Shown here one piece after another: positions 29,036-61,497 of a stretch of 64,000 nucleotides of DNA. The translations under genes were made by a program, and so were the position numbers. The DNA comes from Pleurocapsa minor HA4230-MV1 (lineage in GTDB: Bacteria; Cyanobacteriota; Cyanobacteriia; Cyanobacteriales; Xenococcaceae), in contig JAHHHZ010000011.1 of the NCBI GenBank assembly GCA_019359095.1, forward strand, positions 62,001-126,000, read 5' to 3'. The notes beneath the pieces were generated by a model that saw only the letters and a list, made by a program, of their open reading frames with translations, ran no database searches and was not told where the DNA came from. How positions within the stretch are numbered: the first letter of the stretch is position 1; each line of letters begins with the position of its first letter.

Positions 29036-29252
29036 TTAAGTAGGTAGGCAAAATAATTGATCAAACCCCTACCCTTAGAGCTATTTGTCCTAAAGGATTC
29101 CTAAAGGATTAGCTCCTTCGTCCTAAAGGATACCGCTCCGCATATCGCGTCACCGCTCCGCATATTACTCGTTACTCGTTACTTGTTACTCGTTACTTGT
29201 TACTTGTTACTCCCTAACCTCATTTCCAATTTAATTACACCCACCTACTTAA
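29036..29252. mobile_element. MITE copy 1 (TTAAGTAGGT termini)
   Basis: The left end is TTAAGTAGGTAGGCAAAAT and the right end ACCCACCTACTTAA. The interior carries the CCTAAAGGAT repeat, GCTCCGCATAT modules and a block of TTACTCG/TTACTTG heptamers (about 29163-29212). In inverted orientation 61190-61342 shares both ends plus the segments GAGGTTAGGGAGTAAC and GCTCTAAGGGTA. There is no coding capacity. Confidence 0.75.
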
Positions 29253-48947: not shown

Positions 48948-51584
48948 TTATTCAATATTAATGGGATCGACATCGATAGTCATGCTGACGGTTCTAGGTA
49001 AACGCGATCGCAGCAGTAAATTGAGATCGGGTAAATTATCTTTTGCCGTGGCGGGAAACTTGAGTAAAATTTGCCAGCGATAACGACGAGCAACCCGCAT
49101 GATATTGGCTGGTGCTGGGCCTAAAATCTCGTATTCTGGGCTTAGGGTGTTAATTAGAATATCTGCCAAGGTTTCAGCCGCTTTTTCTACTTCTCTCTCA
49201 TCAATACTGCTCAGTTTAATCAGGATGAGATTGCCATAGGGAGGATAGTTTAGTTCGGCTCTTTGCTCTAACTCGGTGTTGCTGAAATCATCATAGTTAT
49301 GGGTTTTAACGGCTTGAATTACAGGATGTTCGGGGGAATAGGTTTGCAGAATTACTCTACCTGGAAGATCTCCTCTGCCTGCTCTACCTGCCACCTGAGT
49401 CAAAGTCTGGAAAGCTCTTTCGGCTGCACGATAATCACTGCGATGTAATAAGCCATCTGCTGCGACAATACCCACAAGAGTAACCCCCGCAATATCTAAG
49501 CCTTTGGTGAGCATTTGAGTGCCGATTAAAATATCTGCTTCTTGGTGAATAAAGCGATCGATTAACTGACGATGTGCGTCTTTGTTCCTGGTGGTGTCGC
49601 TATCATAGCGAATTGTGCGGAGTTCAGGAAATAATTTAGCTAATTCTTGAGTAACTTTCTGTGTCCCGCTACCAAAAAACTTGAGATAGGGAGAATTACA
49701 TTCTGGGCAGATTTTAGGCTGGATCTGAGTATGATTGCAATAGTGACAGCGCAAGAGTTTCGCTGCTCCTTCATGGGTGTGGTGATAGGATAAAGAAACA
49801 TCACAGTCTGGGCATTCCATCACATAGCCACAACTGCGACAGGAAACAAAAGTACTGTGTCCTCGCCTGGGGATAAATAAAATACCCTGTTGTCCTTGGG
49901 ATTTCATTTCGGCGATCGCTTTTTGCAGAGATAAGCTAAAAATAGATCTATTCCCGCGACTCAATTCCTGACGCAGATCGATAATTGATACTTGCGGTAA
50001 TGGACGTGCAGCAATTCTTTCGGGTAGGGATAAATAAAATCCAGTTTCATTCTGTAGGGGCGAACGCCCTAAAGGATTAGCTAGCGCGTCGCCGTTCGCC
50101 CTTACGTCAACAACATCGGTTAAACTCTCTAATGAAGGAGTGGCAGAACCTAAAACAAGAGGGCAATTTTCCAACTCAGCTCGCCATTGAGCTACCTTAC
50201 GGGCGTGATAAGTAGGAGCAGGACGATCTTGTTTAAAACTGGAGTCATGTTCTTCATCCAGGACAATTAAGCCCAGATTTGGCAGAGGAGCAAAGATTGC
50301 CGATCGCGTGCCAATTATTACCTGGGGTTCTCCCTGAATTGTTTGTCGCCAAGTATCGTAGCGTTCATTAGCCGATAATTTACTGTGATAAACGCACACT
50401 TGTGTCCCAAATCGAGCGCGAAAGCGATCTGTAAGCTGCGGTGTTAAACCAATTTCAGGTACGAGTACTAAAGCCGATTTCCCTTCTGCTAAAACAGGTG
50501 CGATCGCCTGAAGATAAACTTCGGTTTTTCCCGAACCCGTTACACCGTGTAGAAGCAGTTGAGCATAATCTTGTTGAGCATTAATTACAGCCAGAGCATT
50601 AGCTTGAGCCAGACTAAGTTCCTTGGGTCGATCTGCTGCTTGCATAACACCCTGTTCGTGACGCAAAATTTCTCGTTCAGACAGAACAATATAACCTTTG
50701 GCTTCTAAGTTCTTAACCGTGTTAGAAGTGGTACTGCATAAACCGATTAAGTCTTTAAGCCATAATTCCCCACCCCTGTTTTTCAGCATCTGTAATATTT
50801 CCTGCTGTCTGCTGGTTAGATCCTCCAATAAAATACTGGTTGCTAGGGTAACAGCAGTTTTTAGCTTGGGTTTGGCTCGTTTGGGGGGTTCAAGATAATT
50901 TTCTACCCAACCTCTTTTACTAAGTTCTCTAATACCACGACTTGCCCCTTTTACCTTATTTCTGAGATGATTAACACTATAATCGCCGTCTTTTTGACTT
51001 TGTAACAATCTGAGGACTTTTCCTGCCACTACACTACAAAAAGTTTCCGCACCAGGAGGCAGATCGAAACTTAATTTAACTCTTCTTTGCGATCGCCCTA
51101 ATAAACCAGGAGGTAGAGCTACCCGAATCGCACTCATTAAATCAGTACTATAGTAGTCAGCAATTTTTTCTAACAGGTGCCAATAGCTATCTTTAAAAAA
51201 CCCTGAAGTAATTACATCTTCTATAGGGCGAATTCTTGCGGGATCTAAATCTGCGGGAGGTGAGGTAACAAGACGGATCGCAATTCCCCCGATCAGTTGC
51301 ATACCAAAAGGAACGCTAACAATATCGCCAGACTGTACTATTAACTCAGGGGGAAGACTATAGGTATATAATCCTTGGGTTTCTCCTGGGGAATCGACTA
51401 AAACCTCAACCCACTGCTGAGGATTCATTTCATAAATTACTTGTGGTTCAGCCACTAACAGGTTGGTTGAAATCGCTGTTTCGTAGAGATGAGGACACGC
51501 CTTGTCTTGTTTCCCACTAAGAGTAAGTTCGTGGCGATCGCTACTATTGATTGAGGACATATGCTGATCGGTACCAGTTAGCAT
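48948..51584 (-). CDS. priA: Primosomal helicase PriA with in-frame repeat insertion
   Basis: 878 residues, somewhat long. PriA restarts replication forks. Walker A is LLHGVTGSGKTEVYL, the DEEHD box LIVLDEEHDSSFKQ and motif III GSATPSLESL. Zinc-binding cysteines lie in CRSCGYVMECPDCDVSL, LRCHYCNHTQIQPKICPEC, and helicase motifs V/VI in GTQMLTKGLD and QVAGRAGRG. About 18 extra residues (VRANGDALANPLGRSPLQ) after motif III come from a palindromic repeat at 50054-50105. The 50-residue N-terminal extension before MNPQQWVEVLVD is atypical, so a later ATG may be the real start. Confidence 0.93.
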   Translation of the reverse strand: MLTGTDQHMSSINSSDRHELTLSGKQDKACPHLYETAISTNLLVAEPQVIYEMNPQQWVEVLVDSPGETQGLYTYSLPPELIVQSGDIVSVPFGMQLIGGIAIRLVTSPPADLDPARIRPIEDVITSGFFKDSYWHLLEKIADYYSTDLMSAIRVALPPGLLGRSQRRVKLSFDLPPGAETFCSVVAGKVLRLLQSQKDGDYSVNHLRNKVKGASRGIRELSKRGWVENYLEPPKRAKPKLKTAVTLATSILLEDLTSRQQEILQMLKNRGGELWLKDLIGLCSTTSNTVKNLEAKGYIVLSEREILRHEQGVMQAADRPKELSLAQANALAVINAQQDYAQLLLHGVTGSGKTEVYLQAIAPVLAEGKSALVLVPEIGLTPQLTDRFRARFGTQVCVYHSKLSANERYDTWRQTIQGEPQVIIGTRSAIFAPLPNLGLIVLDEEHDSSFKQDRPAPTYHARKVAQWRAELENCPLVLGSATPSLESLTDVVDVRANGDALANPLGRSPLQNETGFYLSLPERIAARPLPQVSIIDLRQELSRGNRSIFSLSLQKAIAEMKSQGQQGILFIPRRGHSTFVSCRSCGYVMECPDCDVSLSYHHTHEGAAKLLRCHYCNHTQIQPKICPECNSPYLKFFGSGTQKVTQELAKLFPELRTIRYDSDTTRNKDAHRQLIDRFIHQEADILIGTQMLTKGLDIAGVTLVGIVAADGLLHRSDYRAAERAFQTLTQVAGRAGRGDLPGRVILQTYSPEHPVIQAVKTHNYDDFSNTELEQRAELNYPPYGNLILIKLSSIDEREVEKAAETLADILINTLSPEYEILGPAPANIMRVARRYRWQILLKFPATAKDNLPDLNLLLRSRLPRTVSMTIDVDPINIE
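50054..50105. repeat. Palindromic GTAGGGGCGAACG repeat inside priA
   Basis: The arms GTAGGGGCGAACG and CGTTCGCCCTTAC are inverted; nested between them are CCTAAAGGATTAGC and GCGCGTCGCC, modules of the other dispersed family. It is thus a composite of two repeat types. The priA frame stays open across it. Confidence 0.75.
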
Positions 51585-53499: not shown

Positions 53500-53845
53500 A
53501 ACATTGAACATTGAACAATTGATAACGAAGTGCGATATGCCCTAAAGGACTAACTTCGTGTCGCGGAGCGGTATCTCCAACTATGCGAGACAAGTCCTTT
53601 AGGACGCGAAGGACGGACGCGCAAGCTGACGCGAAGCTAACCCTTTAGGGCGACGCGAAGCTAGTACTTTAGTGAATCCTTTAGGATAAACAAAAATTCT
53701 TTTTTTCAAAAGAGGTAACTGATCATTGTGACGCATATCCTTTAGGGAAGCTAATCCTTTAGGACTCATTGCTCATTGCTCATTGTGACGCGAGCTTGCG
53801 AGCTAATCCTTTAGGACTCATTGCTCCTTGTTCATTGCTCCTTGT
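53500..53845. repeat. Dense mosaic of dispersed repeat modules
   Basis: GAACATT heptamers are followed by repeated modules: CCTAAAGGAC, CTTCGTGTCGCGGAGCGG, TATCTCCAACTATGCGA, AAGTCCTTTAGGAC, GACGCGAAGCTA, GAATCCTTTAGGA, and finally TTGCTCATTGCTCATTG / TTGTTCATTGCTCC heptamer-like units. There is no coding potential. The modules also occur at 33393-33500, 56375-56660 and 61384-61480. Confidence 0.75.
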
Positions 53846-56336: not shown

Positions 56337-56374
56337 CCTAGTAGATCGTCAAGTTTGAATTGATGAGTTGAGAT

Positions 56375-56660
56375 TAGGTAGTCCTAAAGGATAAGCTTCG
56401 CAAATAGGTAGTAGGTAATGCGTGACTTCTATACTTACTATCCCTTTTCTTGAACAGGTCGCTCATGGGGCTTGCCCTAAAGGATGTTATACCCTTGTGG
56501 TATTAACTTCGTGTCGCACCGCTTAGTTGGGTGGAAACCCCCAAGTCCTAAAGGATTCCCTAACCCTAAAGGGGACCGCTTCGCATAAGGGTACACCTTC
56601 GGACGATGCGAAGCGAGTGCTTTAGTATAAACTCCTAACGTCGCGTCATTGCGCCCGTTC
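56375..56660. repeat. Dispersed repeat mosaic, includes exact copy of 4473-4502
   Basis: It contains TCCTAAAGGATAAGC, GCCCTAAAGGATG, a 30-bp segment (56516-56545) exactly matching the minus strand of 4473-4502, AAGTCCTAAAGGATTCCC, GGACCGCTTCGCATAAGGG and TACACCTTCGGACGATGCG. No gene is credible here. The remaining 285 bp up to the next gene are AT-rich with no feature that I can name. Confidence 0.75.
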
Positions 56661-61189: not shown

Positions 61190-61342
61190 TAAGTAGGTGG
61201 GTGTAATTAAATTGGAAATGAGGTTAGGGAGTAACAAGTAACGAGTAACGAGTAACGAGTAACAAGTAACAAATAGCTCTAAGGGTAAGGGTTTGATAAC
61301 GAAGTGTATCCTTTAGGATAAATTATTTTGCCTACCTACTTA
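61190..61342. mobile_element. MITE copy 2 (TAAGTAGGTGGG termini)
   Basis: The left end is TAAGTAGGTGGGTGTAATT and the right end GCCTACCTACTTA. It carries a GAGTAAC/AAGTAAC heptamer block and GCTCTAAGGGTAAGGG, and is an inverted relative of 29036-29252 missing some internal modules. Non-coding. Confidence 0.75.
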
Positions 61343-61383
61343 TAGCCAGACGTAAAAACGTTAGAACATTTTGCAATGACTCT

Positions 61384-61497
61384 ACTACCTACTACCTATA
61401 TGCGAAGCGGTATCTCCAACTATGCGACTTGTGCCGCTTAGTTCGGTAGACAAGTCCTTTAGGACTACCCACTACCTACTACCTACTACCTACTAAT
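61384..61497. repeat. Dispersed repeat modules and CTACTAC heptamers
   Basis: CTACCTA units flank ATGCGAAGCGGTATCTCC, AACTATGCGACTTG, GCCGCTTAGTTCGGTAG and AGTCCTTTAGGAC. The last heptamers overlap the rsmH stop region. The same modules occur at 53540-53600. Confidence 0.7.

Follow-up and report, generated by a model that had tools for sequence, protein, structure and literature searches.

Small mobile repeats of cyanobacteria were reportedly treated by Elhai et al. in 2008. Rickettsia palindromic elements (RPEs) are characterized in the main text of PMC3733652 as small palindromic repeats with in-frame insertions in numerous proteins that are unrelated to each other and presumably functional. 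The same text deals with the GTAG-tagged REPs, which include the cyanobacterial families GTAG-12, -15 and -16, and in it Di Nocera et al. (2013) describe genes of DNA synthesis and repair as containing many intragenic REPs; PriA is not named in that main text. Nostoc and Xanthomonas have heptameric G-rich tandem repeats, which PMC4692102 describes as under-represented in coding regions.

Here we report a composite palindromic repeat of 52 bp that is predicted to be translated as part of the primosomal helicase PriA in Pleurocapsa minor HA4230-MV1. It lies in a stretch of 64,000 nucleotides, which is referred to as the window and to which positions given without a contig or locus refer. The element is like the RPEs, as these are portrayed in the main text of PMC3733652, in being an in-frame palindromic insertion into unrelated proteins; its host and sequence differ, and the likeness is one of mode of working. 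Unlike RPEs, the priA element is 52 bp long and has a composite core, and the same loop of related species holds other repeats. We read it, with a probability of roughly 0.8, as a tolerated repeat of selfish type in a permissive, disordered loop, with no function indicated.

The host gene extends from 48948 to 51584 on the minus strand as a stop-free open reading frame (ORF) of 878 aa. Its identification as priA is based on Pfam, by which the PriA 3'BD, the DEAD helicase domain, the Zn ribbon (barely at the cut-off) and PriA_C are all present, and on matches to solved PriA sequences at an E-value of 4e-121. An AlphaFold2 model of the protein, computed from a shallow alignment of 46 sequences and having a mean pLDDT of 74.6, matches the folds of 6dgd (Z 26.6, 591 residues aligned) and 8fak (Z 25.6, 596 residues), in both cases along the greater part of its length; the top-ranking fold matches are Mfd, with an alignment limited to the helicase part. 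Among titled records the closest PriA is that of Pleurocapsa sp. CCALA 161 (88% identity), and the relatives are Pleurocapsa-like cyanobacteria. The protein contains the sequence GSATPS, which we take to be helicase motif III.

The repeat occupies positions 50054 to 50105, just past GSATPS, and on the gene strand it reads as PriA residues 494-511 (VRANGDALANPLGRSPLQ). One arm, GTAGGGGCGAACG, was located by sequence match at 50054 to 50066 on the plus strand; the other, which reads GTAAGGGCGAACG on the minus strand, is its inverted counterpart at 50093 to 50105 and differs from the first by one change. Between the arms, a core of 26 bases with a CCTAAAGGATTAGC module (50067 to 50092) stands where a plain 28-bp palindrome has only 2 central bases, and within this core CCTAAAGGAT is matched exactly at 50068-50077. 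The preliminary description had recognized a palindrome with an inner module in frame in priA, and this account is confirmed: the 52 bp are a composite repeat, and the ORF runs through them free of stops. When judged within the window only, the arm pair is not extreme, since at up to 2 mismatches it has 2 matches where shuffles average 0.43, and as many are reached in 8 of 100 shuffles. For the inner module the excess is extreme already at this scale, with 16 exact copies of CCTAAAGGAT against a shuffle mean of 0.27 and none of 100 shuffles reaching 16. Mosaic arrays dense in CCTAAAGGAT / GCGAAGCTAATCCTTTAGG modules, apparently intergenic, are seen at window positions 53520-53830, 56360-56640, 29070-29230 and 61290-61480.

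Genome-wide, both the arm or palindrome and the inner module are clear repeats. The palindrome GTAGGGGCG-N0-30-CGCCCCTAC is matched 18 times per strand in the window's genome (17 places, as two matches overlap) and not once in the reversed control. With 1 mismatch allowed, the arm has 64 matches against 5 in the reversed control, and AGCTAATCCTTTAGG has 278 against 0. The composite is itself multicopy: a second copy in the same genome, at G000:C36:186652-186703, differs from the priA copy by a single base out of 52, and its flanks are unrelated to those of the priA copy (7/30 and 10/30 bases agree). A search of 40 genomes for the 25-bp junction of arm and module, with up to 3 mismatches allowed, gave 49 places spread over 7 genomes, and none with the reversed control. 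The window's genome has 7 of these places, four congeners have 23, 9, 7 and 1, and two other genera have 1 each. Twenty junction places were fetched, of which 14 match the composite at both ends, with a length of 51-81 bp and a variable middle, and 3 fall in an ORF of at least 100 aa. The priA feature is one copy of a clade-specific, multicopy composite family, made up of REP-like ends and an inner CCTAAAGGATTAGC module. A nested insertion that took place within priA was rejected, since the arm-module junction is constant across the composite family.

The family has much in common with the GTAG-tagged REPs as the main text of PMC3733652 presents them. Both have a GTAG end and a G+C-rich palindrome of REP size, both are dispersed with some copies in ORFs, and both hit replication and repair genes among their ORF hosts; our palindrome is short and G+C-rich and, by the counts given above, present in many copies. 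In the definition given in that text, however, the GTAG is unpaired and stands at one end only, whereas in perfect copies of the element GTAGGGGCG...CGCCCCTAC pairs GTAG with CTAC and so makes it part of the palindrome. Nor does the repeat flank a RAYT (Y1 transposase) gene at any of 8 loci: the genome has 8 matches to PF01797 (Y1_Tnp), and exact GTAGGGGC, GCCCCTAC, GGGCGAAC or GTTCGCCC was found in none of the 8 stretches, which reach about 1.5 kb to each side where the contig permits. As both the unpaired one-sided tag and the flanking RAYT are missing, we do not class the element as a GTAG REP. Mobilisation by a neighbouring RAYT is likewise unsupported. By analogy, the element appears to work as RPEs and the intragenic GTAG/CGTC REPs do.

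At the same site of priA, palindromes of this kind are carried by several relatives. Two congeners (L002 and L003) have a perfect 28-bp palindrome with differing cores, and four more (L004, L005, L008 and L009) a 28-bp palindrome with mismatches at 1-3 of 13 positions between the arms; in other genera of the family, the palindrome is perfect in L018 and has 1-3 of 13 arm mismatches in L022. The right flank CCCCTACAGAATGAAAC is common to the window's gene (L001) and L002. To judge from this shared flank, the palindrome site is probably older than the split, whereas the composite core is probably peculiar to the window's lineage among those seen. The palindromes of the genus may be one old insertion with turnover of the core. 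In another family, the palindrome of L063 is perfect, but its arm differs slightly and it is read in another frame. Other loops hold other repeats. A CCTAAAGG/CCTTTAGG module with no 28-bp palindrome is found in L010 and L072, and short-unit tandem repeats occupy many further loops, the longest of which is that of L159, with 91 residues. Some of these tandem repeats resemble in appearance the heptameric G-rich repeats depicted in PMC4692102; where those are described as under-represented in coding regions, short-unit repeats here sit in frame in PriA loops.

Two peculiarities of the assemblies were noted among these loci. L014 and L046, both from G025, are two priA contigs about 90% identical over 2350 bases, only one of which has the palindrome; they are probably two strains in a mixed bin. 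In the draft genomes of L073 (G048) and L074 (G041), the reading frame is broken where the priA loop holds G/C-rich tandem repeats, which may reflect real slippage or an assembly error.

The codons that hold the repeat belong to a hypervariable loop, residues 485-519 (50028 to 50132, minus strand), which lies between GSATPS and LPERI. Bounded by gap-free alignment columns at residues 489 and 514, the segment ranges in length from 2 to 43 residues over 46 PriA sequences, and it is the largest indel site of the protein (a range of 41 residues, against 15 at the next site); the solved gammaproteobacterial PriA lacks 19 residues at the loop in the alignment. Measured after motif III, the loop has 12-91 residues with a median of 23 (156 genomes with an unbroken loop). 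In the AlphaFold2 model, residues 495-512, which are flanked by a helix (485-496) and by a strand (515-520), have a pLDDT below 50 and are thus predicted to be disordered. A pLDDT below 50 is also found at residues 1-54, 310-314, 575-578, 580-605 and 633-637, and on this model low pLDDT is not peculiar to the repeat-bearing loop. The loop of the window's PriA has 35 residues. That of L007, from the same genus, also has 35 and shows no recognisable palindrome, its end resembling the loop end of L004 and L005, and loops of 34 residues with no repeat tag are found in L192 and L203. The roughly 18 residues that the repeat had been said to add therefore stand as coding content and not as a simple net gain. 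Equally long repeat-free loops do occur in relatives, matching in length and not in sequence.

For the wider comparison, a search of the phylum covered 386 genomes, 382 of which gave a match. From this search, loops were read at 28 fetched loci and at 80 places chosen among the better-scoring matches listed, with most picocyanobacteria-like genomes and more distant members of the phylum left out. In total 169 loci were read for loops: 163 were parsed at first, 4 of the 6 missed were recovered and L175 was re-parsed, L076 and L223 staying unparsed. Setting aside the frame-broken L073 and L074 and counting twice-seen genomes once gives 156 loops. In 41 of them there is a direct or inverted repeat that is matched by at most 1 of 200 dinucleotide shuffles. 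An automatic rule, which missed the perfect palindrome of L063, tagged 39 loops: 8 with a palindrome, 3 with a CTTTAG module and 31 with a direct repeat of at least 12, overlaps being counted in each.

Tags were given to 33 of 58 loops of at least 30 residues and to 1 of 85 loops of fewer than 25. Insertions of the priA type, which the preliminary description had thought worth seeking in related strains, are present there as palindromes and other repeats. That description had also singled out as notable the insertion of a repeat into a core replication protein. The in-frame repeat is real; with loops of 12-91 residues and more than half of the longer ones tagged, it is no one-off event in a rigid core.

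The repeats are concentrated in the loop relative to the rest of the gene. For comparison, 5955 overlapping, loop-sized control windows were taken from the same 55 genes. Direct repeats of at least 12 occur in 10 of 55 loops and in 10 of these windows, and inverted arms of at least 11 in 4 of 55 loops against 8 of 5955 overlapping control windows; direct repeats in PriA loops reach 76 nt. The typical loop is nevertheless unremarkable, and the recurrence holds for a minority: for the median loop, 31% (direct) or 69% (inverted) of the control windows of its own gene score as well, and loops that beat every window of their own gene number 12 of 55 for direct and 9 of 55 for inverted repeats. On a tree of 46 PriA sequences calculated with the loop omitted, the repeat type changes at least 12 times, gains being indistinguishable from losses and the types being labels set by hand from the loop sequences. 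The REP (palindrome) state alone requires 6 changes, of which 5 are forced by well-supported branches, and the tandem state requires 6. The automatic rule does not reproduce the tree labels of L005, L017 and L021 and leaves L046 unscored. Draft assembly artefacts were rejected as the source of the loop repeats, which are also found on multi-megabase contigs (G006:C1, G077:C1, G286:C1, G341:C2 and G417:C1).

These data also bear on the view that the loop is an ordinary variable linker of chance low complexity, which drifts and in which matches to repeats are accidental. Such a linker would agree with the 117 of 156 loops that carry no recognisable repeat tag, but chance accounts neither for a match of 51 out of 52 bases at another locus, nor for perfect 28-bp palindromes in three orthologs, nor for direct repeats of up to 76 nt, and the shuffles and within-gene windows speak against it as well. 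For the priA copy this view is refuted by the multicopy family, and we hold it to be highly improbable overall.

In-frame palindromes are not specific to PriA in the window's genome. Of 31 palindrome or arm places, 11 (PriA included) lie in ORFs of at least 100 aa, the census comprising 30 scripted places and L032, which had been dropped as a duplicate and lies in no such ORF, and omitting arm matches past the 30 fetched as well as the last palindrome matches that have no locus. As with RPEs, the repeats are in frame in otherwise intact genes of varied function. By Pfam, the ten hosts other than PriA are CobN, a class I/II aminotransferase, a glycosyltransferase, Mfd (N-terminal part), an MmeI-like enzyme, SufD, an Orn/Lys/Arg decarboxylase, PIG-L, RecJ and a Y1 transposase. 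The palindrome is at the very end of the glycosyltransferase ORF and adjoins the start in PIG-L; in 2 of the 11 cases the repeat sits at one end of the ORF, close to the start in L109 and at the stop in L044. The CobN-family ORF (L033) has two palindromes at separate places, read as VGANGHSPLQ and VGANGRSPLQ, and the Y1 transposase-like gene (L031, 1253-1897, minus strand) has a palindrome inside its own coding sequence.

The palindromes in Mfd (L045/L225) and RecJ (L111/L255) of the window's genome are in frame at sites that vary among relatives. At the Mfd site, parsed in 24 of 30 loci, a plain palindrome is present in L225 (the window's genome) and L237, a palindrome with a long CTTTAG-containing core in L228, and direct repeats of at least 12 in 4 of 24. 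At the RecJ site, parsed in 27 of 30 loci, there are two palindromes in L255 (the window's genome) and one with an expanded core in L257, and direct repeats of 17 and 28 in two of the 27. The Mfd and RecJ counts are raw, the control with within-gene windows covering PriA only.

That repair proteins are found among the hosts may point to a bias beyond pure tolerance. One alternative is functional domestication. A loop derived from the repeat might tune the activity of PriA or its contacts with partners, or a hairpin in priA DNA or mRNA might regulate expression. Domestication would explain why PriA, Mfd and RecJ are among the hosts in this genome, all three with in-frame palindromes, and would be in keeping with the frequency of intragenic REPs in DNA synthesis and repair genes given in the main text of Di Nocera et al. 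(2013; PMC3733652). It is nonetheless unlikely: the loop is unconserved in sequence and length even among congeners, cyanobacterial PriA proteins with loops of only 12-13 residues exist, the arms have diverged in some priA orthologs, and unrelated metabolic proteins serve as hosts too. The RNA folding of the priA element (z of -0.93, with 36 of 200 shuffles folding equally well) likewise argues against it; as folding is no better than in shuffles, regulation of priA by an RNA hairpin was rejected.

Alternatively, the hosts could be hit preferentially, for example through processing of hairpins or REPs linked to replication forks or to highly transcribed repair genes, tolerance acting as a filter only afterwards. 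Depending on the genome, this one loop of PriA does hold the palindrome, the CTTTAG module or short-unit tandems, and a similar mixture is seen at the sites in Mfd and RecJ. Selection that removes insertions elsewhere would, however, make the survivors appear biased regardless, metabolic genes are hit as well, and no target motif or duplication common to the insertions was established; we consider biased insertion unlikely. A bolder proposal, to which we also assign little probability, is that the loops of PriA, Mfd and RecJ are recurrent sinks for palindromes, CTTTAG modules and slippage-prone tandems, whose turnover would serve to adjust repair activity in evolution, perhaps in a phase-variable manner. 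If so, repeats should pile up far more in the loops than in the rest of the gene, and loop length should change fast.

We favour the reading of the priA element as a tolerated, selfish-type repeat. The copy would have arrived by insertion; alternatively, template switching or gene conversion would have put it in the place of a plain palindrome that sister species still have. The PriA loop would tolerate almost any in-frame sequence, so that purifying selection would remove only copies that bring stops or frameshifts, and the survivors would be translated as filler, the peptide being presumably expressed and probably neutral. Over time, unrelated repeats may repeatedly have entered the loop, replaced one another there or disappeared from it in different cyanobacteria.

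A literature search over titles and the opening parts of abstracts returned no paper on PriA and repeats in cyanobacteria, nor further work on translated cyanobacterial repeats, and as far as the literature searched goes, it appears to be a new finding that a single loop of PriA has come to hold unrelated repeats again and again in different cyanobacteria. A practical consequence is that indels at this site of PriA are unsafe as phylogenetic or functional markers. The priA loop offers a natural series, from no repeat through the plain palindrome and the composite to tandem repeats, in which the growth of a disordered loop can be tested, and the same series allows a test of whether repair proteins are favoured hosts. 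More generally, the finding illustrates how small repeats turn into protein sequence, with several unrelated families represented in one loop of a conserved helicase.
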